Assembly: GCA_015143295.1 (NCBI GenBank)
Contig: CM026573.1
Span: 9,391,934 to 9,455,933, forward strand
Source of the DNA: Tetracentron sinense
Lineage: Eukaryota > Streptophyta > Magnoliopsida > Trochodendrales > Trochodendraceae
Reading direction: 5' to 3'
Length of the DNA stretch: 64,000 nt
Part shown: positions 4,159-59,400 of the stretch, in pieces
Layout of the letters: each line of letters opens with the position of its first letter
Numbering within the stretch: the stretch's first letter is position 1
Notes under the pieces: generated by a model
Databases searched by the model: none
The model's input: only the letters and a program-made list of their open reading frames with translations
What the model was told of the DNA's origin: nothing
Position numbers and translations under genes: made by a program

Positions 4159-5173
4159 ATGAACAGTGGCCACCTCTTTCAAGTCACTCGTTGGGTTGCA
4201 GAGTGCACAACCAAGGAGATTGTTTTCGAATCCACCCCATTTTGGGTGCAACTTCATGATCTGCCCACAAATATGACAACAAAACATATTGGGGAAGCTC
4301 TAGGGGGTGAAATCGGAGAAGTTATGGACGCGGACCTGCCATAGGGGTCCCATTCAAGAGGAAAATATAAACGAGTGAGAGTGGGCATCAAAATAGCACG
4401 ACCACTTCGATACCAGATACGATTAATGCGTCCAGATCGCACGCCTGCTGTAATCGCAATAAAACATGAGAAGTTACCAACGTTTTGCTACACCTACGGC
4501 ATCAATGGGCATGATGAGAAAACATGCTCCCTTCAAGGGCAGGTTAGTGCTTTCCAAGAACACTCTTCTATTCTGGTATATGGGCCATGGATCTGTGCGG
4601 AGTATTTGGGAGCTAAAAGGCCACCGGAAATTTCAACAATCAACCTAAGAAGTAGTAGCAAATCCGGCGAAGGTACAAGCCATGGACGACATCCAGGGTT
4701 CGAGGGGAAGAAGACGAGCACGGACATGCCAGAACTTTTGAACGTTGGAGGCTGTTTCAAACACACAACTGAAGAGATAGAACGTGACAACCAGACACAA
4801 CAGATCAATAGACCATTAGAAATACTCAGTGCTAGGTTATCTCCTACTTTTCGTACTATCAGTCTTGGAAAGAGAAGGTCCTCCTACCAGCTCCAATGAG
4901 GAACAAGATAACATTAATTGCTCTGACCCACCTGGTGCAATCATGCAAGAGCATACAAACACGCCATCCCGGAGACAAGAACCAAGCGGTGAACCCGACC
5001 CAGAAGCAAGGAAATTGTGGGGTGAAGTGATGGAAATATTACCTGAACCACCTGATAGGAAAATCAGCATTGTTGATACCCGCCCAGATAAGAGGAGACC
5101 CAGCCCAAGGCAAACTAATTTGAGGCCTGCAAAGAAACAGAAACATGCTTCAATTATTCTAAAGCAGGCCTAA
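4159..5173 (+). pseudogene. LINE ORF1 remnant (DUF4283 + CCHC knuckle)
   Basis: The frame from 4159 reads ...FWVQLHDLP... followed by an IGEALGGEIGEV stretch, the C-terminal half of DUF4283 as found in plant LINE ORF1 proteins. After an in-frame stop at about 4342 the same frame resumes at 4375 and reads through a KHEKLPTFCYTYGINGHDEK knuckle ending in C, in which one Cys of the usual CxxCGxxGHxxxxC is Tyr. The frame then shifts near 4830-4899 into a charged, proline-rich tail (to 5173) with PAKKQKHA. ORF1 proteins bind the LINE RNA. Homology is recognised from the motif pattern only. Confidence 0.75.
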
Positions 5174-5400
5174 AAGGCCATTGCAAAAGCCCATCGCAGG
5201 AAATGTTCACAACCCAAAGGTAATTCCAGTCTCAACTCCATTCTATTAGCTATACGAACCGATCCCATCACCAGCATCGCATCTAAGGAGAGCCCACTCA
5301 CTCCTGCTCGGAGTGGAGCATCCTTTCCAGTCCCACATAAAGAACTAAGGCCCATTTTTTCATCGAAGGAGGTTGCAATGGAGCAACCCCTCCGTCCACA

Positions 5401-8400
5401 ATGAGTCTTATATGTTGGAACTGTCGGGGAATTGGGCAACCCCTGACAGTTCGGGCTCTCAAATAGCTTATTCATATTCACAAGCCTGAGGTATTACTTC
5501 TTATTGAGACAAAAGCACAAACAGCCAATATGGAAAGATTGGCCAGGAAACTTCAGTTTGATGAAGTCTTCATTCCGGAACCAAGGGTCATCGCAGGAGG
5601 AATGGGAGTCATGTGAAAGAGTTCCTGGGATTTGAAAATCATCAATGACTCTGATAACTTAATCCAAGTTAAAGCTACTCCCCCCAAAGCTAGGAAAACG
5701 TGGGGCCTATCTCTAGTCTACGGTCCATCAGAAGCTAATAAAAGGCTGCAATTCTGGAACCAACTCACTACTACACCCTCTTTGCTTAGCAGCCACATTT
5801 GGGTGGGAGATTTTAATGACATTTTGCATCCTCATGAAAAAGAATGAGGAAAGGCAAAGAATCTGAATCAAATGGCAGCTTACCGCGATTTCATTCAAGA
5901 TCAACAGCTTATGGATCTTGGTTTTCAAGGTAATCCATTCTCCTAGACAAACAAAAGAGCTGGTACAGCTAGTATTCAAGAGAGACTTGATCGGGCCCTA
6001 TGCACCACCGATTGGCACCAGGATTATGAAAATGCTACAGTAACTCACCTTCCCATTATAGGGTCGAACCACAGCCCCATCAAGATCACCCTTAACCCGG
6101 AGAAGGAGCACCAGAAACACCATTTTAAGTTTGAAGCAATGTGGACCAGTCATCCTAACAGTAAGCAGGTTATCAAGAAGGCTTGGGAGACCGAGTGCAA
6201 TGGATCAAACATGTATAGAGTTTGTAATAAGATAAGGCAATGCAGAGACAATCTTCGAAGGTGGAATAAGGAGGAGTTTGAAGATATTCATAGAAGGAAG
6301 CAGCATCTCATAGCTCAGATTGAAGAATTACAAAACAATTTCTCAACCAAAGAAGTTTGTCAAGTAGAGGATAAGCTACAAAATGATTTTGCCTTAACTT
6401 TGAAGCAGGAAGAAATGTTCTGGGCACAAAAGTCTCGGGTTCAATGGCTTCATGAAGGAGACCTTAACACAGTTTTTTCACCTATCTACAATCCAACGGA
6501 GGCAAGCCAATAGACTCTAGTGCATCACAGATGAACAAGGGAAGAACTATACTAAACCCTATGAGGTTATTGATTGCATTGTTAATCACTTCACCACTTT
6601 ATTCATTTCATCTAATCCTATTATTAACAATGAGGATTTTCATGACTTCCCCTTGTCAGTTACCACTGAGATGAATGTTGATTTGTGTAAAGTCTTATGG
6701 GACGAAGAGGTGAAGAAGGCCGCCTTCCAAATGGGGCCTACAAAAGCTCCAAGACCGGATGGAATGCCAGCGCTTTTTTTCCAGAACTATTGGGACACGG
6801 TTGGACCTCAAGTCATTCGGGCGGCCAAGAGATTCTTCTATGGGGGGTGCATGCTCAAGCAAGTTAACTACACCCATGTTGTATTAATTCCTAAAGTCCC
6901 TAATCCGTAGCATATAGGTCAGCTTCGCTCTATAAGTCTATGTAATGTCCTTTACAAAATCATTGCAAAAATCTTGGTCAACCGTATGAAATACATCTTG
7001 GAGGACATTATCCACCCAGCTCAAAGTGCTTTTATCTCGGGGAGGAGCATTCAAGAAAACATTCTCATTACCCATGAAATGCTCCACCACGTGAAAACAC
7101 AAAAAAGAAATTCGAGGTGGTACATGGCTATAAAACTTGACATGAATAAGACCTATGACCGTCTGGAATGGGGCTTCATAGTGCTTGTCCTAAAGAAAAG
7201 CGGTTTTTGTGAAAAATGGACTCAACTCATTATGCAATGCATCACAACTGTGAATTATTCCATTCTTATTAATTGGCAGGCTCAGTGTTACATATCTCCC
7301 TCTAGGGGTCTCTGACAAGGGGACCCGTTATCTCCCTATATCTTCATCCTTGCATCCAACTTTCTACAAGGGGACCCGTTATCTCCTTATATCTTCATCC
7401 TTGCATCCAACTTTCTATCTCATCTGATAGATAACGCCAATAGAAATGGTGATATATCCGAAATAACTGCTAGGAGATCTAGCCCAACTATTACCCATAG
7501 TTTGTTTGCTGACGACAACATTCTTTTTTGCAAGGCCTTCTTGCATGAAGCAGGAAACATAAAGGAGCTTCTTGAAAATTTTGGGCGGTTATTGGGGCAG
7601 CAAGTCAACTACAACAAATCTGGGTTGATGTTTAGCAAAAACACACCTTACAAGATTCAGAAAATGATTAGCCGAATGGTGAAAATCAATATCACGGTTG
7701 GAGCAGGGACATATTTGGGACTTCCCTCAGTATTTGGGAATTCTAAAGCTACTGTGTTCTCCAACATTAAGGATCACATTTTGAACTGGATTCAGAGTTG
7801 GAAAGGAAAATATTCTGACAAAAGCACGAAGGAACATTCTTATCAAAGCAATACCTCAGGCCATCCTAGCTTATGTCATGAGTTGTTTCAAGCTTCCTCT
7901 CACACTTTGTCGAGAGATAAACTCAGTAGTGGTCAACTTTTGGTGGGGACAAGATAATAACAAAAGAAAGATTCATTGGGTTAAGTGGGCTACAATGTGT
8001 ACCAACAAAGGAGAGGGAGGCGGGGGCTTCCACGACCTAGTCTCTTTCAACATCTCCCTTCTTGCCAAACAAGGATGGAACTTGGTCAAAAACCCCAAAT
8101 TCTGCATGGGCCCAATTAGCTAAGAGTATTTACTTTCCCAAGATGGCGAAGGTGGGAGCTCGACCTCGTGGTCATGGAAAAGTATTATAGTTGGCCGGGA
8201 AGCTCTTAAATTAGGCCTTCGATGGAACCTAGGAAATGGCCGCTCTATAAAACCTTTGGGAAGATGCCTGGATTCCCACCCTTCCCGGTCACAAAGTTAG
8301 ATCGCAAAAGCCTGAGCAATGTCATTGGAACAAAGTAGTTGACTTCATCAATATTCCCAATGAAGGATGGGAATTAGAGAAGCTACGACATCATTTTAAT

Positions 8401-9600
8401 TCGGAAGAAACTGTGGCGATCCTCAAAATCCCCTTTAGCAAGTCTAATGATAATGATGAGCTTATTTGGCATTTGGAGAAGAGCTGGTTGTTTTCAGTTC
8501 ATTCGGCCTATCATGGACATAGAGAAGCTACTTCCAATAGGTGTGTAGGAGAAGCAAGTTCAGGTAGTGCCATCACAAGAAAAGGTTGGAAAACCATGTG
8601 GAAGCTTCCAATACCAACCAAAGTTTGTTGGTTCATATGGCAGTGCCTAAAAGAAGCGATCCCAACTCGCAAAGTGCTTGTTAGGCGGAAGATTCTGGTT
8701 GATCCCCATTGCCCATTCTGTGATAATCAGATTGAATCTATTACCCATATTCTTTTTGATTGCCAAGTTACTCGTAGTGCTTGGTGGGGATCCTCGCTTT
8801 CCATCCGCATAGACCAACGAAAAGCAAGAAGTTTAAAGGAATGGTGGCAACAATGGACCAATCAAGTTTTAACGGAGCAGCATAAAGTTTCCTTCCTCAC
8901 TGTCTGTGTGTCACTCATGTGGAGCATTTGGAAAAGCCGAAATGAAAACTACTTTAAGGCGGTCCCTCCAGATCCGCGTAGTATCATTCATCAAGGTGAA
9001 AAACTCGCCCAGGAGAGCTTATAGGTGTTGAAGGATAGAAACACCATAACTATTTCGAGTCTGCCTTACTCAAGTAATCTCGGGGGACAAAGGACTTTAC
9101 CACCTAATGGCTGGATCAGAATCTCTTCGGATGGCGTATATAATCCCCGAACCCAGGCAGGCGGATCAGGATCCTTAGCTTTTAACTCTAAAGGGACCAT
9201 TCTCTTGGGTAAGATCCAGGCCATACCTAGGGGATCAGCTCTTATTGCCGAGGCAGTTGCTCTCCGAAATGCGGTCGAATTAGGATCCTCGCAAGGATGG
9301 AAGCAGGTGGAGTTAGCTCTAGACTCGAAAGTTTTGGTTAAGCTCACCAATCACCCAAAGATCAAGGAGCCATTTAAGATTGTAGCAATAATGGGGGACA
9401 TCAGAAAGGAAATCAGCAAAATCCCTCACTATGTTATTATACATATCAGTCGAACCGCCAACATGTTTGCTCACAAGCTCGCAAGCCGTAGTATGAGTTT
9501 CGGTGTCAATGAAGATTACAGGCATCATCTTTTAAATCCCTGGAATTGTAGGAAAGTGTTGGCCGAAAGGAGACCTCAACCTGTTCATGAGGGTCCTTAA
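5401..9600 (+). pseudogene. LINE ORF2 remnant: endonuclease, RT, zf-RVT, RNase H
   Basis: The start at 5401 reads MSLICWNCRGIGQP, the classic start of the APE-type endonuclease. WVGDFNDIL (about 5800) and SNHSPI (about 6070) are endonuclease motifs. Reverse transcriptase: APRPDGMPALFFQ (about 6750; the family usually has APGPDG), QSAFISGRSIQENILI (about 7020), KLDMNKTYDRLEW (about 7130), GDPLSPYIFILA and FADDNILF (about 7500; usually FADDT). Then a zf-RVT-like WKLPIPTKVCWFIW...CPFCD...HILFDC (8580-8780) and RNase H starting WIRISSDGVYN (9112) with AEAVALRNAVELG. In-frame stops lie at about 5464, 5615, 5845, 5946 and 9022, with frame changes near 6475, between 6910 and 6974, and near 7900-8400. 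RT Asp pairs remain but the product could not be made. Confidence 0.85.
7315..7417 (+). repeat. 51-bp tandem duplication within LINE RT
   Basis: The segment beginning CAAGGGGACCCGTTATCTCC and ending CCAACTTTCTA occurs twice in a row with about one difference. Each copy is 51 bp (17 codons) and encodes the GDPLSPYIFILAS motif, so the repeat keeps frame but duplicates a core RT segment. Confidence 0.85.
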
Positions 9601-12665: not shown

Positions 12666-13721
12666 TTAAAGCACATTTTCCTTCAATATCTTAACCCCTT
12701 GGTACCTGCCTAGCATTAACAGAGTTGCCATTGGGTTTGTGCCAGGTGAATCGACCAAAGTCGAACCATCAATAACCCTTAATCCATCAACTCCATAGAC
12801 CCTGTAATCCTCATCGACCACTGACCCAACAACGCAGCCTCCATGATAATGGTAGTATGTTCTCACATTCATCTTGCAAAATTCTCTTAGTTCATCATCA
12901 CTAGACTTCACAGTTTCGTAACTTTGAGTCCCTAAAAACAAACTGATTGATTTGGACTGTGAAACATGCTTGAGCAACCGAACCATCTCGACACATTTGT
13001 CCAAGTCCCTCTCCTCTACTAGATAATTGAATCTCACTGAAGGATTTTCCCTGGGGTCTGTGCTATTTAGTTGTAGCTTCCCTCTAGAAACTGGGACTGC
13101 AATTTTAGCTGCAATTCCTATCCGGGTTGCATTGAAGCTTATGGGTAGGATTGGAGATTGGATTATGATTTGGAAGTCATTTGCTATACCCACAACTTGA
13201 ATTGTGTCTATTTCTCGAGATCCTGGCTGAGAGTCTACATAAAGAAGGATGCCAGGGTTGTCTTGGATAGATTTCCCGACATTTATTGCGTCCTTGAGAA
13301 CTGAGATATTGAAGCGTTCAAGGTGTTCTTGGGGTCCAATTCCACTCAACATAAGGATTTGGGGACTACCTAATGCTCCTGCTGACAATACTACATCACC
13401 CCATGACTCTGAGTCTGGTTGCTTGAGGTAAGCTTCATAAATTTTGTCCGAGTTGCAATCGCTCTTGATGAATCTTATGCCGCAAGCTCTGAGCTTACTT
13501 CCATCTCCTGCATGGTCGAAATAAAGAACAATGTGAGCCATAAAAAAATTGAGAATAGAATTTGACTTTCCAAAGAGGAATGATTAGCTAGAGCAAGGAT
13601 TGAAAATACAGATTGAGTGGTAATGGTCCCAAACTAAACCTATACGTATCGATTTTAGTATTATTTCAGACAATACATATAGTTTTTTTCTCTTTTTTAG
13701 AAAAATTTAAAAATAAAATAA

Positions 13722-13797
<76 letters not shown>

Positions 13798-15044
13798 ATT
13801 AAATGAGTCATAGAACCAAATTTACCGAATTTAATAAGTATATATAGCCAAATGTAATGAGCTAAGACCAAGTAAAATTGTAAAAATGTAGAGTAGCTAA
13901 ATAAATTACCAGATAATCAATAACAAATTAACAATAAGTAATGAGAAACGAGTCAAAGACAAATTAGCAAATAAAATTACAATTACACAATGAATTAATG
14001 AAAACATAAATAACTAATAAATGCTACGTATCGCCCATTTTGTATCAGTATAAATATTATATAGCGCTACCGAAACCAACACGTATAACTCATTTCATGT
14101 CGGATTTGGTGGTTTTTATTTCCATGGATTAGAGACAAACCAAATATGTAACCAAGCAAAAGCTTGGAATAAAGCGATGAGTCAAAAAAAATTAAAGACT
14201 TAAAATCACTATAAATATTTTGTTCTAAGAAAAGTCCATTATTTTACCATTATCATGGAAGATGACATTTTTGACTGTGGCATTCAAAAGAACTGTGATA
14301 TTCTTCGAAACCCCGGTCCTTAGTATATCCGCAGAGGTATGTCGCCTTCCAAAATCATCAAATATCCACCCACCCATTTTTGTTCCTTCAAGATGCTCCA
14401 AACTAAGACCATTGAAAGGTAGAATTCCTACCTCAACAAGGCCATCTCTCACAGCAGACTGCCATGGGCTCAGCTTTGGTTCAAATACCACCTTAGATTC
14501 CACCCACTCATAAGCATCCCTCACTAGAGTCTCATCCCACCTAGCACTTCTAATAAAATCCCGGCTAGCTCTACTGTAAAAGCCATAGTTAATTGCCGTC
14601 GACCCCCCTAAAACTCTTCCTCTATAATTAACAACTCCTTCCTCGGACACGAACTGTTGCGCAACCGATGAGAATTCATCGGTTTGGATCAACGACAACC
14701 CGCATTTCTTCCTTTCTAATATGAAGGGATCATCATAAGGCGACCCGCCTCGTTCTACCAAAAGTACTGAGAATCTCTCGGACAGGGTCGCTGCTAGGGG
14801 GCAACCACCGGCTCCTCCCCCTACGATGATGTAGTCGAAGGACCTACCCGACACTTCTTCGATATCTGAAGTCATGTAGGGAAGCCCGTCTCCTACAATG
14901 AGAGCATAAAGAGATATAAGTGATCATATTTTCAAAACAAACCAAAAAAACATTGTGTAACTTACCTTGAGACAATGCAGAGAAGATAATGAGTAAGAAG
15001 AGGGATGCTGTAAAAAGGCCATGAATGATTTGTTGAAACTCCAT
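12666..15044 (-). CDS. GMC oxidoreductase copy A, (R)-mandelonitrile lyase-like / HTH family
   Basis: Exons (minus): 15044-14966, 14892-14248, 13507-12666; each intron is GT-AG and both junctions are phase 1, giving 521 residues with no stop. Residues 1-26 (MEFQQIIHGLFTASLF...) form a signal peptide, so the enzyme is likely secreted or vacuolar. Next come the FAD-binding Rossmann motif GGGAGG in FDYIIVGGGAGGCPLA, GMC signature 1 (RVLGGSTAINYGFYSR), GMC signature 2 ([15 protein letters not shown]), the catalytic-His segment YYHYHGGC, and the C-terminal GTNPMATLLMLGRYQGVKIL. The family includes almond hydroxynitrile lyase, HOTHEAD and related FAD alcohol oxidases; the sequence alone does not decide between lyase and oxidase. 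It is somewhat shorter than the usual 550-590 residues. The Met at 15044 was chosen because it starts the signal peptide; an in-frame Met lies at 15101. The leader is 5 codons shorter than in copy B. Confidence 0.9.
13717..13796. repeat. (TA)n microsatellite in intron 2 of GMC copy A
   Basis: About 75 bp of uninterrupted TA. The same intron position in copy B has only about 8 TA units (26916-26933), so the array expanded after the duplication. It creates a spurious YIYIYI reading frame. Confidence 0.9.
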
Positions 15045-25855: not shown

Positions 25856-28200
25856 TTAAAGTACATTTTCTTTCAATATCTTAATCCCTTGATACCTCCC
25901 TAGCATTAACAAAGTTGCCATTGGGTTTGTACCAGGTGAATCGAGCAAAGTCGAGCCATCCACAACCCTCAATCCATCAACACCATATACCCTGTATTCC
26001 TCATCGACCACTGACCCAACAGCACAGCCTCCATGATAATGGAAGTATGTTCTCACATTCATCTTGCAAAATTCTCTCAATTCATCGTCACTAAACTTCA
26101 CAGTTTCGTTACATTTAGTCCCTAAAAACAAACTAATTGATTTGGACTGTGAAACTTGCTCGACCAATCGAACCATCTCGACACACTTATTCAAGTCCCT
26201 CTCCTCTGCTAGATAATTGAATCTCACGGAAGGATTTTCCCTGGGGTCTGTGCTATTTAGTTGTAGCTTCCCTCTAGAAACTGGGAATGCAATTTTAGCT
26301 GAAATTCTTATCCTAGTTGCATTGAAGCTTATGGGTAGGATTGTAGATTGGATTATGATTTGGAAGTCATTTGCTATACCCACAAATTGAATTGTGTCTA
26401 TTTCTCGAGATCCCAGCTGAGAGTCTACAAAAAGACGGATGCCGGGGTTGTCTTTGATAGATTTCCCGACATTTATTGCATCCATGAGAACTGAGATATT
26501 GAAGCGTTCAAGGTGTTCTTGGGGTCCAATTCCACTCAACATAAGGATTTGGGGACTACCTAATGCTCCTGCTGACAATACTACATCACCCCATGACTCT
26601 GAGTCTGGTTGCTTGAGGTAAGCTTCATAAATGTTGTCCGAGTTGCAATCGCTCTTGATGAATCTTATGCCGCAAGCTCGGAGCTTACTTCCATCTCCTG
26701 CATGGTCGAAATAAAGAACAATGTGAGCCATAAAAAAATTGAGAATAGAACTTGACTTTCTGAAGAGGAATGATTAGCTAGAGCAAGGATTAAAAATATA
26801 ATTTGAGCTGTATCCATCTCAACCAAAACTTATATCGATTTTAGTATTATTTCAAACAATACATATAGTTTTTTTGTCTCTTTTTATGAAAAATTTAAAA
26901 ATAAATTAAATTAATTATATATATATATATATATCAATTAAATGAGTCAAAGAACCAAATTTACCGAATATAATAAGTATATATAGCCAAATGTAATAAG
27001 CTAAGACCAAGTAAAATTGTAAAAATATAGAGTAGCCAAATAAATTACCAAATAATCAATAACAAATTGACAATAAGTAATGAGCTCAAAGATAAAATAA
27101 GCAAACACAATTACAATTACACAATGAATTAATGAAAACATAAATAACTAATAAACGTTATGTATCGCTCATTCCGTATAAATATAAATATCGTATAGCG
27201 CTACCGAAACACCAACACGTATTACCAGTTTCTTGTTGGATTTGGTGATTTTTATTTCCATGGATTAGTGACCAACCAAATATGTAACCAAACAAAAGCT
27301 TGGAATAGAGCGATGAGTCAAACAAAAATTAAAGAATCAAAATCACCATAAATATCTATGTTCTAAGAAAAGTCCATTATTTTACCATTATCATGGAAGA
27401 TGACATTTTTGACTGTGGCATTCAAAAGAACTGTGATATTCTTCGAAACCCCGGTCCTTAGTATATCCGCAGAGGTATGTCGCCTTCCAAAATCATCAAA
27501 TATCCACCCACCCATTTTTGTTCCTTCAAGATGCTCCAAACTAAGACCATTGAAAGGTAGAATTCCTACCTCAACAAGGCCATCTCTCACAGCAGACTGC
27601 CATGGGCTCAGCTTTGGTTCAAATACCACCTTAGATTCCACCCACTCATAAGCATCCCTCACTAGAGTCTCATCCCACCTAGCACTTCTAATAAAATCCC
27701 GGCTAGCTCTACTGTAAAAGCCATAGTTAATTGCCGTCGACCCCCCTAAAACTCTTCCTCTATAATTAACAACTCCTTCCTCGGACACGAACTGTTGCGC
27801 AACCGATGAGAATTCATCGGTTTGGATCAACGACAACCCGCATTTCTTCCTTTCTAATATGAAGGGATCATCATAAGGCGACCCGCCTCGTTCTACCAAA
27901 AGTACTGAGAATCTCTCGGACAGGGTCGCTGCTAGGGGGCAACCACCGGCTCCTCCCCCTACGATGATGTAGTCGAAGGACCTACCCGACACTTCTTCGA
28001 TATCGGAAGTCATGTAGGGGAGTCCGTCTCCTACAATGAGAGCATAAAAAGATATATATAAGTCATCAGATTTTCAAAACAAAACAAAAAAAATTGTGTA
28101 ACTTACCTTGAGACAATGAAGAAGATGAAAATGAAGAGAAGATAATGAGTAAGAAGAGGGATGCTGTAAAAAGGCCATGAATGATTTGTTGAAACTCCAT
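25856..28200 (-). CDS. GMC oxidoreductase copy B, (R)-mandelonitrile lyase-like / HTH family
   Basis: Exons (minus): 28200-28107, 28030-27386, 26697-25856; the splice sites and phases equal those of copy A and the product is 526 residues without a stop. It has a signal peptide with the longer serine-rich leader (FSSFSSSSLSQ), the GGGAGG FAD motif, [28 protein letters not shown], the catalytic-His segment YFHYHGGC and a GTNPMATLLMLGRYQGIKIL end. Exon 2 encodes exactly the same protein as copy A's exon 2, while exon 3 differs at roughly 26 of 280 residues, including YYHYH to YFHYH beside the catalytic His. The differences could change the substrate pocket. It is likely a functional paralogue; lyase or oxidase activity cannot be settled from sequence. 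Confidence 0.9.
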
Positions 28201-35515: not shown

Positions 35516-37108
35516 CTAGTTGTGGAAGACCCTTGAGCATCGACTTTTCATAATTTCTTTCAGCTTGTGATAGCTAACGTGCCCTAACCGCGCATGCCAT
35601 AGATCTGCAGTCTCACTCCTTCGAGTCTTGTCTACGTATGTTGATTCTGCTGACATCACGTAGATGGATTCTAACCTTCGTCCCTCCATGATAGGTGTAT
35701 CTGATGGCTCCAAGCTTCGATACACTTTGACGTCTTCTGGCCCTAACACCACATAGTTACCTGATGCTGTCAGCTGTGATACTGACAATAGATTCTTCTT
35801 CATTCCAGGTACATGATAGACGTTCTGCAACTGAACTTGATGAGGACTGAAGCGAGGCACGATCATCGTCTTGCCAATGTGTGTGATTGGCAGTCTTGAG
35901 TTGTTGGCCGTCACTATTACTCGACCACATTTATACTCAGACACACTGAGCAGTTTATCCTTATCGCCAGTCATGTGATTGGAGCATCCAGAGTCAACGA
36001 TCCAATCTTTGTTGTAGTCGATTGCTCCATGATTTTGTATTGCAGCAAGTGTCATGTCTTCTGCTTCCGTCACAATAGAACTTGCTGCTATTTCAGTTGT
36101 GACCGTACTAGATTTATCATCTGTCTTCTTCTCCTCGAAAAAAATCTCATCTTCTGAGCAGATTTCTTTGACTTGCTCAGTTACGGCGAAGGATACTTCA
36201 GCATCCCACTCTTCCTCACTATTGCTCCCACTTTGGTGATTGTTGGATGTCACCAAGTTGCCTTCTGCTACCTTTTTCTTTGCCCAGCAATCTCGAGCAA
36301 AGTGACCTCTCTTGCCACAGTTGTAGCATTCATCATTACACCGTTTGGACTGTCGTGTGTCTCTATCTCGGTCATGTTGAGCTCCCCCTGTCTGAGAGCT
36401 CCTCTCCTGCAGCCTCCTTGATCTACCTTCTTCTTTCTTGGGTCTTGCCTGCCCTCTTGGCCTACCTCTTCTTCTACTACTAAAGAGGGCCTCCTCCTCA
36501 TTCTTAAATGAAACTCCAGCCATTTGTTTTGCTAGAGTTTCTTGATCAACCAATAGATTTTGTAAGTCTAAGATGGTTGGCTGTGTTGGCCAACCACGAA
36601 TCGCCGTGATGAACCCACTATACTCGGGTCTCAGGCCATGGATGATGATTCTTCTCATCCTATCTTCATTAATATTAGCTTTCGAATCCAATTGTGAAAT
36701 TTCACGGCAAAGAGATTTTACCTTCATAAAGTATTGGTTGATCGTCATTTCTCCTTGTGAGGTTGACATGAGCTCATTCTTCAGTTGTTGTAGCCTTGCA
36801 TCATTCTTCCTTGAGAAGAGGGCTGCAAAAGCGTCCCAAGCTCCTTTTGGTGTGACTGCATCCCTGATGTGCTCAAAAAACTCCTCTTCAATAGTTGTTT
36901 TAAGCACGAACATAGCCTTCCCGGCCTTAATTTTCCAGCGCCTTAGTGCATCGGCATTCTCTTGAGGAGGTGGATTAGTATCGCTACCATTAACGACCTC
37001 CCACAAATCCTGTCCCAATAGGTACGACTCTATACAGAACTTCCATTTGCTGTAATTTTGGTTGTTAAGCTTCTTGATCCCACCGGTTGCGCTCGCCAAA
37101 TCCGCCAT
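35516..37108 (-). pseudogene. Copia gag-protease-GAG_pre-integrase part of the element
   Basis: A long open stretch beginning [20 protein letters not shown]. It holds a UBN2-type gag core ([13 protein letters not shown]), the zinc knuckle [14 protein letters not shown], the aspartic protease motif [13 protein letters not shown] and the pre-integrase motif [14 protein letters not shown]. These parts package RNA, cleave the polyprotein and precede the integrase core. It belongs to the fossil element 33119-37706. Confidence 0.9.
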
Positions 37109-37711
37109 CGTGACTTGGTATGTCTTCACGTACTCCACCAAGTAAGCTTGATCCCAGATCAATCGACTTCACAGTCCCGGACTATGCACGAACAAGATTT
37201 ATCCTTCGCAGCGCTCGAACACCGGCCTCTGACAACTTGGCTCTGATACCAAATTGTTGAGTATAGAAGCAGTGGAAACTCAAATAAAGAAGCTTTTATT
37301 GATGCACTAACTCAAAAATATACAACACTTAAGGGACACTCAAGGAACACTAACACTCAAGAGATGCACTCACTCTTATCCTCACACAAGAACACACACT
37401 CACTATCACTAGACCTCACACACTTAGAAGAGCTTGTGTTTCTTATATGCACAAATAAGGGGACCCTACCCTCTATTTATAGTAGGCATGTGAATGTTCT
37501 AGATTTCTAGAACATTCTCCCCACCTCCTTTCTTAGGAAACATCTAGAGACTACTACTACCTCTTTTTCTGAGATAGAGATAAGCTTAGGGAGAATTCTA
37601 GAGATAGAATATTCTATTGAGATGAATGTAGAGAGAAGACTCTAGAGAAAGAGAGACACTTGGAAGGGAGAGAGAAAGTTCTAGAGAGTTGGTGGTACTC
37701 TCAACAGAAAG

Positions 37712-38790: not shown

Positions 38791-41039
38791 TTAAAGCACA
38801 TTTGCTTTCAATATCTTAATCCTTTGATACCTGCCTAGCATTAATAGAGTTGCCATTGGGTTTGTACCAGGTGAATCGAGCAAAGTCGAGCCATCGACAA
38901 CCCTCAATCCATCAACACCATAGACCCTGTATTCCTCATCGACCACTGACCCAACAGCACAGCCTCCATGATAATGGTAGTATGTTCTCACATTTATATT
39001 GCAAAATTCTCTCAATTCATCGTCACTAAACTTCACAGTTCCGTTATGTTGAGTCCCTAAAAACAAACTGATTGGTTTGGACTGTGAAACTTGATCGATC
39101 AATCGAACCATCTTGACACACTTATTCGAGTCCCTCTCCTCTGCTAGATAATTGAATCTCACTGAAGGATTTTCCCTGGGGTCTGTGCTGTTTAGTTGTA
39201 GCTTCCCTGTAGAAACTAGGAAGGCAATTTTAGCTACAATTGCTATTTTAGTTGCATTGAAGCTTATGGGCATGATTACAGATTGAATTATAATTTGGAA
39301 GTCATTTGCTACACCCACAATTTGAATTGTGTCTATTTCTCGAGATCCCGGCTAAGAGTCTACAAGAAGAGCAATGCAAGGGTTGTCCTTGATACCTTTT
39401 CCGACATTTATTGTGTTTATGAGGACTGAGATATTGAAGTGTTCAAGGTGCTCTTGGGGTCCAATTCCACTGAACATAAGGATTTGGGGACTACCTAATG
39501 CCCCTGCTGATAATACTACATCGCCCCATGATTCTGATTCTGGTTGCTTGAGGTAAGCTTCATAAATGTTGTCCGAGTTGCAATCGCTCTGCCTGAATCT
39601 TATGCCGCAAGCTCTGAGCTTACTTCCATCTCCTGCATGGACAAAAGAAAGAACAATGCGAGCCTATAACAACAAAAATGAGAACAGAACTTGAATTTCC
39701 AAAGAGGGATGATTAGAGTAAGGATTAAAAATACGGTTTCAGGGTTGTATAGATCCGAACTGAAACGTATACATATTGGTTTCAAATGAATCAGAAAATC
39801 AAATTTACCAAATATAATTAGTATATATAGCCAAAAATAATAAGCCAAGACCAAGTAAAATTATAGAAATGTAGAGTAGCCAATTAATTTCCAAATAGTC
39901 AACAACAAATTAGCAATAAGTCATGAGAAGCAACTCAAAGCAAAGTAGCAAACATACTTACAATTATGCAATGAATGAAAACATAAATAACTGATAAACG
40001 CTACGTATCGCCCGTTTTGTATTAGTATAAATATTGTATAGGGGCTATTGAAACCAATACATATTGCCTGTATTGTATCGATTTTGGTGATTTTTATTTC
40101 CATGGATTAGAGACCAACCAAATGTATAACCAAGCAAAAGCTTGGCATAGGGATGATCCAAAACAATCAAAGACCCAAAATCAGCAAAAAATATCTATGT
40201 TCTATATAAGAAGTGTTAATTATATTACCATTATCCTTGAAGATGACATTTCTGACCATGGCATTCAAAAGAACTGTGATATTCTTCGAATCCATGGTCT
40301 TCAGTATATCTGCTGAGGTATGTCGCCTTCCAAGTTCATCAAATATACTACCACCCACTTTTGTTCCCTCAAGATGCTCCAAACTAAAACCATTGAAAGG
40401 AAGAATTCCAGCCTCAAAAAGGCTATCTCTCACAACAGACTGCCATGGGCTCAGCTCTGGTTCAAAGACAACCTTAGATTCCACCCACTCATAAGCATCC
40501 CTCACTAGCATCTCATCCCACCCAACTCTTCTAATATAATCCTTACTAGCTCTACTATAAAACCCAGCATTAATCGCCATTGACCCCCCTAAAACTCTTC
40601 CTCTATGGTTAATAACTCCTTCCTCAGACACAAACCATTGTGCAACCGATGAGAATTCATCAGTTTGGATAAACGGAAACCCGGACTTCTTCCTCTCTAA
40701 TACGAAGGGATCATCATAAGGTGGCCCACCTCGTTCTACCAGAAGTACTGAGAAACTCTCGGACAGGGTCCTGGCTAGGGGGCAACCACTGGCACCTCCC
40801 CCTACAATGATGTAGTCGAAGGACCTACCTGAGACTTCTTCGACATCTGAAGTCATGTAGGGGAGTCAATCTCCTACAATTAGAACATAAAAAGATATAA
40901 GTGATCAGTTTGTAAAACAAAAAAAAAAAAAACTGTGTAACTTACCTTGAGACAATGAAAAAGATGAAAATGAAGAGAAGATAATAAGTAAGAGGAGAGA
41001 TGCTGTAAAAAGGCCATGAAAGATTTGTTCAAACTACAT
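38791..41039 (-). pseudogene. GMC oxidoreductase copy C, pseudogene
   Basis: Exon boundaries equivalent to copies A and B are all still present (minus: 41039-40946, 40873-40229, 39632-38791) with GT-AG splice sites, and exon lengths match copy B exactly, so there is no frameshift. Three in-frame stops break it: TAG as codon 2 (41034-41036), TGA three codons into exon 2 (40866-40868), and TAG at 39352-39354 in place of the Gln of the VDSQPGSR segment. The FAD motif (GGGASG), RVLGGSMAINAGFYSR, YYHYHGGC and the MLGRYQRIKIL end are otherwise well kept, so inactivation looks recent. It is the most divergent of the three copies and lacks the upstream MITE shared by A and B. A truncated protein from an internal Met cannot be excluded but would lose the FAD fold or the active site. 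Confidence 0.9.
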
Positions 41040-42212: not shown

Positions 42213-43746
42213 TTAGGTGCCAAAATGTTTCGAAGCCACTACAAACGGCTCTGTTTGCCTGCAGTTTAAGTCTAGTACATGTAATTTTTGTCCTGAATCA
42301 ATCTCACTCTGATACTGGCTGTTTAGATCAAGCTTCTCTGGTAATTCAATTTTTCTAAGCTGGTTACCACTTTTGCCTTCATGGGTTGGTGATCTTTTAG
42401 TTGATGGCTGCTTAATACAATTACCAAGAGAAATGGTGCTTCCGCTTCTCTTCTGTCCGCTAACACAATTGCTCGGACCAGTCTTCCATGGATGGCCACC
42501 ATTAGGATGGATCTCCATTAATGGAAGTGCAATGGAAGTTATGTCGCACTCAAGGATGTCTCCACTCTCTTCCTTTGGTTGCTTGTCATCCTTTCTTCCA
42601 GAGCCTTTAAAGGATGCAAAACTTGGGCATCGGGTATCCACCATGGAGACCAACTGAAAGAGTTCAGCTTTTGCAGCTTTGAGCTCCAGAGAAGAAGAAT
42701 TATACCCGACAAGTGTTTCCTCCGCTTTCTTTAGTACCGACTGTAAATACTTCCCTTGAGCTTCAATTCGCAGCTGCAAATGCCTCTGTACCTAAAAAGA
42801 ACATTCATTATTGATGGGTATCATTGGTTTTAGAAAAAACAATGAATGATTTAGACTGGAGTTGGTTCACTGAGTCCTACCTCAATTTGTTCATGAAGTT
42901 TCTTTTGCACTTCCATTTGCATTTTTAGAGCCTGAGCTATCTGCGAGCTTCTGAGTGACAGTAGAAACCTTCAACATTTCCTTCCAAATTCAGTGAATAG
43001 AAGAACAAATGTAATCTCTAGATCTTACCCATTATTCTGTGTGTGTGTTCCATTAATGATTTCTCCACTGATATGGCCACCTTTATTCTGTCTGTCTCTG
43101 TAATCTGTCTCTGAGAAATCTGTAATAAAATCCCATCAAGGCCCAAATGGGAAAAATGTCTAAGACGTGGTAAGTTCTTAATCTGATATATTAGACTCAC
43201 CTTCTTGAATATTGTCACTGAGGATTTCTGACTGATTCTTCCCGAGCCTATATTTCTGAAATAAAGAACACAAATATATTCATAATTTTGTCTCTCTATT
43301 TGATTAGAGTTGGAATGAATGATAAAACTGGATTCAGAGTGAACAAAGAATGCCTGTAAGTGGCTCTTTAGTTGGTACAAAGTAAGTTCAGGAATACCCA
43401 TCACCCTCATCACAGTCCTGGGTGTTGCCTCTGCCCCAAGTAGAAACAAAAAAAAAAGATATAAACTTCAGGGACATATTAGAAGATCTTAAAGATATGA
43501 ACAGATCATAAAGCTTATATACATACTATATGCTCCTCCAAGCTGTGCAACCGCCACAATGAATCGTTGGTGAAGTTCTGGAGTCCATTTTAGCCTGGGT
43601 TTTGGATCAGTGGACAGTACCAAGCTCATATCTGGGTTTTGCATTCTATGCAGATCCATTTCAGTTTTGTGAATCAGATACCATTGAACACTGAAATATA
43701 AACCTGAATTTTGATCCTTAAAACTCTGCATCAATGTGTGGCACAT
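42213..43746 (-). CDS. MYB-CC (GARP) transcription factor, PHR1-like (PHL/UNE16 type)
   Basis: Six exons (minus): 43746-43527, 43430-43354, 43255-43201, 43119-43029, 42950-42881, 42791-42213; phases agree throughout and give 363 residues. Exons 1-3 encode the GARP MYB-like DNA-binding domain: KPRLKWTPELHQRF, then GGAYKATPRTVMRVMGIPEL, then LKSHLQ/KYRLGK (SHLQKYR is the family signature). Exons 5-6 encode the MYB-CC coiled coil with the LHEQIEVQRHLQLRIEAQGK motif. The C-terminus is polar and low-complexity. Relatives act in the nucleus as dimers on P1BS-type sites, notably in phosphate-starvation responses. The junctions are ordinary GT-AG except intron 2 (43353-43256), which begins GC. The start at 43746 is the first Met; the Met at about 43659 (MDLHRM) is an alternative. 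The usual acidic residue after LGG(A/P) is Tyr here. Confidence 0.9.
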
Positions 43747-46185
43747 GTAGTTCTCTTTATAATTTGTTGGGGGATTGTCCTATGACTCCTGTCCTCTGTT
43801 TCACTCCTTATCTAGAAACATAGGTGGGGTTGTGTTTGAGAATATATGCCATGAGCTTCCCCTCTCTCCCACATCAAGTCTTTTTTTTTTCTTTCTTCTT
43901 TGACTTGAAAGGGAAGAAGAGAATCTCTGATGCATCAAAACAGAAAAAGGCAACATAGTTCAATTGAGCCTCAAAAAGGAGAGAAAAGAGGAAAGAGTAT
44001 GGATTGTTTTTAATGCTGTTTCCCACCCTCTCTCTCTCTCTCTCTACTCACTTGCTTGACACTGCTTCATTAGGTAATCCCACCATGATGGTTAATGGAT
44101 GCAACTTTTCTAACACTGTTAAAAGCCTTGGAAAATTTTGATGGGGATGCTTTATTTGTTTTTTCTCTTTAAGTGACTGAAAGATATCTGAGAAAAAAAA
44201 AAGATTGAAAGAGAAATCCAAATGAGAATTTCAATTTTCCTTTTATTATTATTATTTTTCTTTTTGAGGAGGATGTGAAGTGATGAGCAGACCTGTAAGG
44301 TTATTTCTAGGGACGTGGGAAGAAAAGAATTCAGTCTTCTATATCATTGAAGAAATGCTTCAAAAATATCTACCAATAAAGATATACTTAAAAAGCATCA
44401 CTCATTTATGGATTCTTGAATGAATTTTTCTTTAAGGAAATTAAACCAAAAGGAGTCATATATCAATAGGATTATCCAAATACAACGAGGAAACTCCGGC
44501 CGAGTCGTGTATAAACTGTCGATATGGCCTATAAACGACAAAGCTCAACATGTGGCATATCATTCAGTGGAGACCTAAAAAAGGGAACTCTTATGCCAAA
44601 AATCAAACTGATTGGAAGATTAGAGCATTTGATCTTTCACATTTTCTTGTATGACCAAGCTTTGTCTATAGGCTCAGAATAATGATCATTCTAGGTAAGA
44701 GACCATCAAAAAAACTGTTGTATATTTTCTTTGCCAGTGGCTGCATTTGTTTTAATTCTTTAAGAAAAAGGGCATTTTCTTAATGAAATAGAAATTACAG
44801 AAAATGTTACAATCTTATTAGGCCAATCCTTCCAAGTATTTCTTACACAAGGGATGATTTATCATATCGAAAGAGAGCCCCTGGTTTCATTATTGAGATA
44901 ATGCATTTTCACATATGAAGTAAGCAATTTCAGAAGAAAGGAAAGACAACTTTTATTTGAACTTAATCCTTCTCTGTTTTCTCTGCACCTCTTGCACCTC
45001 TTTAACAATGTAGTCAAAATGCCACCTAAGCAACCACCTCCCTCGCCAATCCAGGTTCCCAATCGCCCAGATCATGATCTAGGCGGGTACTTGCTAAATC
45101 TTACAATACTGATTCAAGATTAGCAAACTGCATGTTTTCTTGTGGTCTTAAAGTTCAATGTAAGTGATAGAAATTAATAAGCTAAGAATGAACAGGCGCG
45201 GCTTCATAATTGCAAAGTGCCGCTGAAACTTGAAACAAGATACTCTCTCTCTCTCTACCATCAGATCGATCATCGTAGGGTGCGGTTGCTAGTTTGATCT
45301 CCGGAATCAGAATTCAATCATTGATTTCCAAAGTGCTGACATCTCAGTGCCATACATTCAGTTGGCCTGCTGCGTTTAAGGAATTTTCAATAATTCAAAA
45401 GTGAGAAAGATCAGATACAAAGTATTATTAACCCAAGCTTCAAAACAGCCAGGTCCATCTAATTAATGAGGGACCTGGAGGACATTAGACTGAGAAAATG
45501 TTATGTTTCCTGTTTTTTTCTCATTGGTAAGCTGAAATTTCAAATAATGACACAATTGAATGAACACAATTAGCTTATCTATGACAGATACATGGGCAGT
45601 CTGATGTAACATATTGAGCAACCAACCAAAAAGTCCATAGATCAGATGGTTATTGTCATCACCCAGTCAGGTTAAATTTTGACCTAAAAGATATGCTTGG
45701 TGGATTTAACTGGTGGGTCCAGCCTCATTTCTCCCTGCATGGAAAGGGTTCTTTTCTTCTTCTTCCCATCCACCCCTTTGATGCAACTTCTCCCTATTGT
45801 CTGAACTTGTGCATGGTTTGAGTAACCTTGAAAATTCATCTAATGGTTCTACTATTCCCTACTGACAAGCTCATAGTTCAATCGACAAAGAGGAATCTGA
45901 TTATTGACTAGATTTTAGATATATGTGGCCTATAAGTTTGAAAACTAGAAAAGGAGAGTAATTAAAGTACCTTTCTCTTGCACCATCTGCTGTACTTACA
46001 GCTGCTTTCTTGCTTTAATATATTCCAAAACACATAAAGTAGATTCTGGAATGATGCCAAACGACCCCTGGTATATTTAGGTTAGTGGGAAAAGGTCTGG
46101 TGAATCAAAAGTAAAAGTCATCAGCAATACATTGAATCCAAAGTCATCAGCAAAGATACCCATCAATTTTTTAAAAAAATATTTT
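43747..46185. other. Intergenic, upstream of the MYB-CC gene
   Basis: Holds the probable promoter of the MYB-CC gene with CT-rich tracts (for example 44030-44045, CTCTCTCTCTCTCT). I found no coding exon or structured repeat in the remainder. Confidence 0.45.
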
Positions 46186-51040: not shown

Positions 51041-51736
51041 CTACTTCGCGATCTTCCGAAACTTCTTTGGCGCTGGAACTTCCATTCTACCAACAGAACA
51101 ACCACACCTTGCCCGGAACACAAGAACAGCTCTCCCATTCTGAGGAGCCATCTTCCTAAGCTCAGCTTCCAATTCTTTATGGTGATCTAAGCCCAGCTCA
51201 AAAACTCCCTTCCCACCACCATCTTTCACCAAAGAAGAAGTCGAATTTTTCACACACTCCTCTGTCTCAAGTTGGATATCAAATTCTGCTGCCTTATGAA
51301 GGCCGAGGCAATTCGGCCTCCAACATTTCCTACTAAAAAATTTAGAAATTCCCCAAACAGCTAATATTGCAAATAAAACACCAAGTCCGAGAAAAGCATA
51401 AATCATTGGAGCTTGACACAGTTCTTCTCTCACCATAGAAACAGTGGCTCCACCAATTTCAACAATTCCATCACAGAACAGCTTAATATAGGGAAAAAAC
51501 AAAAACCCACAAGCACCAATAACTGCAATTAAGATTACCACATCAACAGCAACAGTTCTAGATCGATGGCAAGGAGTAATCTTTATGGGGGTCACAGAAT
51601 TGGGTTGCTTTCTGTTCCTCTGTGCTTGATGATTCTTCCTTGAATTGGAAGATGGATCGGTTAACTTCAGAGGATTCGCCATGTTTGTGGGTTGATCCAA
51701 TGGCTTGCAGAGTGAAATTGAGTTGTCGAAATAGAC
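51041..51736 (-). CDS. At5g19025-like two-TM protein (ribosomal L34e superfamily label)
   Basis: Single exon, 231 residues from the Met at 51736 (MVYFDNSISLCKPLDQPTNM), chosen because the remembered Arabidopsis relative At5g19025 starts the same way; an upstream in-frame Met lies at 51793. Features in order: basic, serine-rich N-terminus; TM1 VDVVILIAVIGACGFLFF; TM2 about residues 110-132 (YAFLGLGVLFAILAVWGISK); a cysteine pair in CWRPNCLGL; the conserved EFDIQLETEECVK; LEAELRKMAPQNGRAVLVF; and RARCGCSVGRMEVPAPKK. The family is often labelled ribosomal protein L34e superfamily, but two membrane helices make a ribosomal role unlikely. Function unknown. The putative 5' UTR holds a 30-bp tandem repeat. 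Confidence 0.88.
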   Translation of the reverse strand, partial: VYFDNSISLCKPLDQPTNMANPLKLTDPSSNSRKNHQAQRNRKQPNSVTPIKITPCHRSRTVAVDVVILIAVIGACGFLFFPYIKLFCDGIVEIGGATVSMVREELCQAPMIYAFLGLGVLFAILAVWGISKFFSRKCWRPNCLGLHKAAEFDIQLETEECVKNSTSSLVKDGGGKGVFELGLDHHKELEAELRKMAPQNGRAVLVFRARCGCSVGRMEVPAPKKFRKIAK

Positions 51737-51780
51737 CATTTGGAGAGAAACCAGATGATAAAAACGATCTTCGATGAAAA

Positions 51781-51848
51781 CCCACCAATCCAAAATCGAA
51801 ATCAGATCAAACCCACCAATCCAAAATCGAAATCAGATAAAACCCACC
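51781..51848. repeat. 30-bp tandem repeat in the 5' leader of the At5g19025-like gene
   Basis: CCCACCAATCCAAAATCGAA + ATCAGAT(C/A)AAA occurs twice in a row, followed by a third partial AACCCACC. Confidence 0.9.
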
Positions 51849-58447: not shown

Positions 58448-59317
58448 TCAGCCTCTCCCAAGTGGCGGCTTCGGAGTGTGGCGATTATTAGCTCCTGATC
58501 CTGGATAATCGTGACTCTCCCAATCCATCCTGCCTTTAATATTGAGTTCCTCTTCCATGCCTTCCACTGTGATTTCCTGATTTCATTGAAAGAAGATGCA
58601 TTAGCTTAACTTAATTAAGAATCAGAGATAATTTTAATGGTTTAAATATCTAGTGTTGAAACTTTCTTGTAATTTTTTCTACAAAGTGTGTATATATATA
58701 ATGTAAAAATGTAAAATTGTTATATCGTATTCAACTCAAGAGTCCTTCCCTCAAAAGAAAATTTAAAACGTAACAAAATAAGCTCATGATTTTATGTTCA
58801 TTTTAGAGTAATCATACATAGATATGTTAGCTCAATGAAATGCGACGAAAGAAGGAGAATTCCATGAATTTTGTCCATTTCATTATCAGAAACAAGTATT
58901 AATTGCTCCTAACCATGTAAGAATTTGTAAGAATTTTGTCGTTGTATTGTATAACTAACATAGACTTAAGAAAAACTATAATCAAAATTGGTTATTAAAT
59001 CAGTTTTGTCCAAAATAATATCAAGAATTCCCTGAGACCTCATGAGTTGATTGTTGAAAATGATTTTGATCATCAAATTTGTAAAATACCTGGTGGGTAT
59101 TCTCTGAAGCTACTTGACCTTGAGTTTCATGCAGTAGATTTCTAGTCCCTGTAAACACAAAAAAAAAAAAAAAAAGCTTAAGCAAGAAGAAGAAGAAGAA
59201 GAAGGTACAATACATAAGAGATCAAGGATAATTACTTGATATTGGGACAGCATTCAAGGTGATAAGGTGAGAGAAACTCAATAGAATCACTAGTAGATGA
59301 AGGGCAGTGCCTGCCAT
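58448..59317 (-). CDS. Small secreted peptide precursor, PSY-like (tyrosine-sulfated peptide type)
   Basis: Three short exons (minus): 59317-59236, 59148-59090, 58576-58448. Introns are GT-AG (donors GTAATT and GTATTT; acceptors TTTACAG and AAATCAG), with phase 1 then phase 0, giving 89 residues. Residues 1-24 (MAGTALHLLVILLSFSHLIT...) form a signal peptide; the middle is acidic and variable; the C-terminus is MDWESHDYPGSGANNRHTPK followed by PPLGRG and a stop. The core DYPGSGANNRHTP fits PSY1 (DYGDPSANPKHDP) and bacterial RaxX (DYPPPGANPKHDP) at D-Y, A-N, basic, H and P. An Asp before Tyr is the usual tyrosine-sulfation context. PSY peptides are apoplastic growth/stress signals. The family call is from motif memory; the reading frame, splice sites and signal peptide are seen directly. 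Confidence 0.82.
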
Positions 59318-59387: not shown

Positions 59388-59400
59388 GCTCCATTTATAC
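59388..59400 (-). promoter_or_regulatory. Candidate TATA box of the peptide gene
   Basis: The minus strand reads ATGTATAAATGGAGC about 75 bp upstream of the ATG at 59317, a good TATAAAT at a plausible distance for a short 5' UTR. Confidence 0.5.

Follow-up and report, generated by a model that had tools for sequence, protein, structure and literature searches.

A predicted PSY6-type peptide-hormone precursor gene with diverged and decayed relatives in the same plant genome

The 64,000-nucleotide stretch of DNA analysed here (the window; C23:9391934-9455933 of a 1.16-Gb assembly) appears to carry a nuclear plant gene for a peptide-hormone precursor of the PSY family, of the PSY6/PSY8 type, and we put the probability of this reading at roughly 0.92. 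The assignment, made from sequence, draws on the gene model, the family motif, homologues of the same layout elsewhere in the genome, relics in two related blocks, and a core identical to that of AtPSY6 and of a tomato peptide. This would add one more PSY6-type gene, together with its duplication history, from a further plant genome. The case also indicates that a spliced micro-gene overlooked by ORF scans can be put together correctly by a reader of raw sequence.

Splicing the letters of the window gives a three-exon gene on the minus strand, with GT-AG borders at both introns and a 270-nt coding sequence (Table 1). The complete predicted precursor has 89 residues, MAGTALHLLVILLSFSHLITLNAVPISRTRNLLHETQGQVASENTHQEITVEGMEEELNIKGRMDWESHDYPGSGANNRHTPKPPLGRG, and its C-terminal end reads DYPGSGANNRHTPKPPLGRG. 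The sequence-only reading that first proposed the gene had placed the introns at 59235-59149 and 59089-58577, exactly where we find them, and had correctly given 42 residues as the most that any exon encodes (exon 3). It also called the gene hidden, a description that holds for an ORF scan only. Two homologues on C18, designated C18a and C18b, are described below. The word upstream of the start codon, TATAAATGG, is identical in C18a, and TATAATTGG is found at C18b.

Table 1. Features of the predicted PSY6-type gene, in window coordinates.
Feature	Position and length	Strand	Remarks
Exon 1	59236..59317, 82 nt	minus	carries the start codon; N-terminus hydrophobic, a likely signal peptide; phase 1 at its end; 82 nt also in both C18 homologues
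Intron 1	59149..59235, 87 nt	minus	GTAATT...TTTACAG, 60% T; GT and AG borders also in the C18 copies
Exon 2	59090..59148, 59 nt	minus	propeptide spacer; 59 nt in all three copies
Intron 2	58577..59089, 513 nt	minus	GTATTT...AAATCAG; 136 and 480 nt in the two C18 homologues
Exon 3	58448..58576, 129 nt including TGA stop	minus	acidic spacer, GRMDWESH, core DYPGSGANNRHTP, tail KPPLGRG
13-residue PSY6-type core, DYPGSGANNRHTP	58472..58510	minus	same as AtPSY6 and the tomato MS peptide
TATAAATGG, likely TATA box	59391..59399	minus	82 nt upstream of ATG

Several features of the predicted product agree in pointing to a PSY-class precursor. First, residues 1-25 form a hydrophobic N-terminus, with 15-residue Kyte-Doolittle means reaching 2.17, followed by NA-VP, and acidic residues outnumber basic ones by 8 to 2 over residues 46-70, so that both the hydrophobic stretch and the acidic spacer are present as previously described. 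Second, the definitions of the PSY family in PMC7913133 and PMC11641228 give the motif DYXXXX[AP]NXXHXP, with four residues between DY and [AP]N, and this motif has a single match in the window, both strands counted. The sequence-only reading had written it as DY.....AN, which is one position too long: there are four positions both here and in the family definition of PMC7913133, and the five-dot pattern matches nowhere in the window. Third, a criterion printed in PMC11641228 places the motif within the C-terminal region of a precursor of 60-200 residues, and here the core occupies residues 70-82 of 89. Apart from these features, an Asp stands at position -1 to the core Tyr; an acidic residue adjoining the Tyr is needed for TPST, according to PMC7913133. 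The propeptide is short and probably disordered. A Pfam scan of the precursor returned nothing above the cut-off (the best match was DUF3641, E 0.037, 14.5 bits where the cut-off is 24.9).

Every exon of this gene is short by itself, as would be expected if the frames were open by chance and there were no gene. Yet we regard this as hardly credible, because the motif occurred in 0 of 1000 simulated windows (first-order Markov, same length) and because homologues keep the exon layout. We give equally little credence to the idea that the gene encodes a DY-type sulfated peptide of another family (RGF/GLV or CIF) rather than a PSY. The cores of those families, as printed in PMC11534595, PMC9028419 and PMC9369194, also start with DY, and they are likewise described as derived from secreted precursors (PMC7913133). 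When compared by eye, however, neither the RGF1-RGF5 cores in PMC11534595 nor the CIF-type cores in PMC9028419 and PMC9369194 contain AN..H.P, whereas the core in the window is the one printed for AtPSY6 (PMC11534595).

All homologue searches were made within the same genome. With the 89-residue product as query, 10 matches at E <= 0.001 were obtained among 12 scored candidates: three were the window gene's own exons, four came from the two C18 genes, one from C1172 and two from C7. When spliced by the same rule, C18a and C18b both have first and second exons of 82 and 59 nt and phases as in the window gene; their predicted products are 86 and 87 residues long. These shared lengths and phases provide independent support for the exon model. 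Against C18a, the window gene is 93% identical in exon 1, 85% in exon 2, 76% in exon 3, 75% in intron 1 and 62% in intron 2; against C18b, the figures in the same order are 90%, 90%, 74%, 78% and 66%. In both comparisons, exons 1 and 2 lie above the introns. The flanks show 81% (C18a) and 72% (C18b) identity over the 150 bases before the ATG, and 68% and 65% over the 400 bases after the stop. Exon 3 overall is therefore no better conserved than intron 1. The window gene differs from C18a and C18b by 12.0 and 12.3 synonymous and by 31.0 and 32.7 non-synonymous changes, giving a pairwise dN/dS of 0.73 in both cases (0.62 between C18a and C18b), which indicates that pairwise constraint is weak.

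A ratio of this size, not strongly below 1, would also fit a PSY6-type gene that worked in the past and has since fallen silent or begun to decay, that is, a pseudogene with an intact frame. The clear decay of the related copies in two other blocks, described below, points the same way. We nevertheless judge this quite improbable, as the window gene retains its frame, all four splice borders, its start and stop and the TATA word, as well as the core printed for Arabidopsis and tomato, whereas the copies on C4 and C10 have lost theirs. A gene encoding a PSY6-type precursor remains the preferred reading.

The surroundings of the gene recur elsewhere in the genome. The neighbouring gene at 51041-51832 encodes an unnamed protein with no Pfam match above the cut-off, and among the 13 matches listed for it the best others lie at C18:15394304 (78%), C10:34519675 (72%) and C4:50035072 (68%); each of them has the minus-strand orientation seen in the window. 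For the MYB-CC exon at 42213-42791, C4:50024003 and C10:34508827 are the best other matches, each lying some 11 kb ahead of the neighbour-gene match on that contig, and C18 is absent among its 17 matches. The distance from the neighbouring gene to the PSY gene is 6.6 kb in the window, and roughly 7 and 41 kb for the two genes on C18. We searched ten stretches of C10, C4 and C18 for related sequence, and found it on C4 at about 50042548-50043354, 6.9 kb beyond the neighbouring gene, and on C10 at about 34523827-34524216, 3.5 kb beyond it. As DNA, the C4 copy matches at 69% over 1019 bases (E 4e-91) and at 65% over 418, and the C10 copy at 67% over 301 bases (E 1e-14) and over 324 bases (E 3e-16). 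As protein, both copies match more weakly: the best E for C4 is 2.5e-8, and C10 matches the C18b product at E 1.2e-6 but the window product only at E 0.024; these values refer to the ten loci alone, where many chance matches appeared in the other loci, reaching E 0.11 at best. Both copies are decayed: they contain stop codons and have lost the frame, and the Asp before the core Tyr is replaced by Tyr. The matching block positions thus place the window gene in one of four related blocks. The window holds the intact copy with the PSY6 core, two diverged copies are present on C18, and relics remain on C10 and C4. We infer that the blocks arose by whole-genome duplication.

The MYB-CC gene itself occupies 42213-43779 of the window (minus strand), with the LHEQLE motif (PF14379) on the 42213-42791 exon and upstream frames, up to 43779, that look by eye like its MYB part. 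Elsewhere in the window are three tandem GMC-oxidoreductase genes, at 12666-14923, 25856-28073 and 38791-40865 (minus strand). The first has Pfam GMC domains; the second matches, in its N-terminal part, (R)-mandelonitrile/hydroxynitrile lyases of solved structure, and matches best of all 8s2y_A, which is named simply as a GMC oxidoreductase N-terminal domain protein; the third was assigned by eye from its ORF translation. By eye, open frames at 4345-9600 (plus strand) resemble a reverse transcriptase of the LINE type that ends in an RNase H-like part, and those at 35516-37168 (minus strand) resemble the Gag region of a Copia-type element.

A wider census, in which the C-terminal exon on C1172 served as a second query (10 matches at E <= 1), brings the number of PSY-like C-terminal exons in the genome to at least nine: one in the window, two on C18, four on C7, one on C11 and one on C1172. 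The count is a lower bound, since the census proceeded exon by exon, scored the best candidates and was run without a PSY1-type query, and for the copies on C7, C11 and C1172 it covers the last exon only. The exon on C1172, a small contig, is 95% identical over the query to that at 22.87 Mb on C7; the two may be one locus assembled twice. A candidate at C11:41777073 (E 0.2) was dropped, as it has no DY motif. The four C7 exons lie within about 300 kb (22.87-23.17 Mb), two with the core DYPGTGANPGHDP, one with DYPGTGPNPGHDP and one with a shortened spacer, DYHTGPNHDHDP.

The family motif DYXXXX[AP]NXXHXP is matched by seven of the nine exons, and the PSY6 core is found in one of the nine, that of the window gene. 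In C18a, the core reads DYSGPGANDRHTP. The two exceptions to the motif are C18b, with DYNWPPGANDHHTP and a five-residue spacer, and the C7 copy at 23.17 Mb, with a three-residue spacer. The C18b gene (C18:15435753-15436578) has an open frame, and its longer spacer breaks the family motif; it is either relaxed or encodes a changed ligand. This change of spacing, seen in C18b and, with less certainty, in the C7 copy, is the least explained point of the analysis. It is conceivable, though we think it unlikely, that after genome duplication the C18 copies have been turning into a new class of ligand (perhaps antagonists, or peptides with altered receptor choice), while of the nine PSY-like exons only that of the window gene keeps the PSY6 core.

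How the product might act can be proposed from the family. The N-terminus would direct secretion of the precursor, TPST would sulfate the Tyr of the DY pair, at least one proline would be hydroxylated, and proteases would cleave before DY, freeing a peptide that starts there. This peptide would then bind PSYR-type LRR receptor kinases and repress their stress output, allowing growth. In Arabidopsis, PSYR1-3 directly bind PSY5 and PSY6 and, when unbound, drive stress responses and restrain growth, according to PMC10519359, which also reports LC-MS/MS identification of the secreted mature forms of PSY6 and PSY8, and secretion of mature PSY5. With a 13-residue core equal to that of PSY6, the product of the window gene would most likely act in the same way. 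A search of the genome for TPST with PF03567 gave no match, and the same search was equally silent in 14 control genomes, so the result is uninformative.

Among published systems is the bacterial mimic RaxX, a PSY1-like sulfated peptide whose synthetic forms bind PSYR2 and PSYR3 (PMC10519359). Unlike the window product, RaxX is bacterial and is perceived by XA21 according to the same source; the two are likened by description only, and the comparison adds nothing beyond membership of the PSY class. Of nine tobacco genes described in PMC12153210, one has two introns and eight have three, and PMC11641228 gives two exons for seven wheat genes and three introns for the remainder. Intron number is therefore not diagnostic. 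Peptides of a neighbouring type, for example DYPGTGANNRHDPKTPGGP, are listed from soybean xylem sap in PMC9369194.

Closer comparisons bear on the core and the tail, both of which had been called distinctive in the window gene. Tobacco NtPSY1, printed as DYPGSGANNRHMPRPQLGR in PMC12153210, ends in an LGR-type tail similar to PPLGRG, but its core has M where that of the window gene has T, and the prolines of its tail are spaced differently. In PMC11534595, PSY6 is given as DYPGSGANNRHTPH and PSY8 as DYPGSGANNRHLPR, with precursors of 94 and 85 residues, respectively, compared with 89 here. The first 13 residues of AtPSY6 (At1g74458) are those of the window core, 13 of 13, and AtPSY8 (At3g47510) shares 12 of 13, and the core DYPGSGANNRH of the PSY6/PSY8 subgroup, as grouped by the printed cores, is present in the window gene; the tail KPPLGRG differs from both, and the sequence comparison was made over the core. 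In tomato, Table 2 of PMC9028419 lists a xylem-exudate peptide from Solyc03g115950, DyPGSGANNRHTp, with a sulfated Tyr and a hydroxylated Pro; the letters "PSY" are absent from the main text of that paper. Compared as a released peptide, it has the same 13 residues as the window core. Thus, the GSGANNRHTP core is already in print for AtPSY6 and tomato, and the style of the PPLGRG tail is in print for NtPSY1, so neither can be called distinctive. As the core has been described before and detected in tomato, the window gene adds little to current knowledge of PSY signalling.
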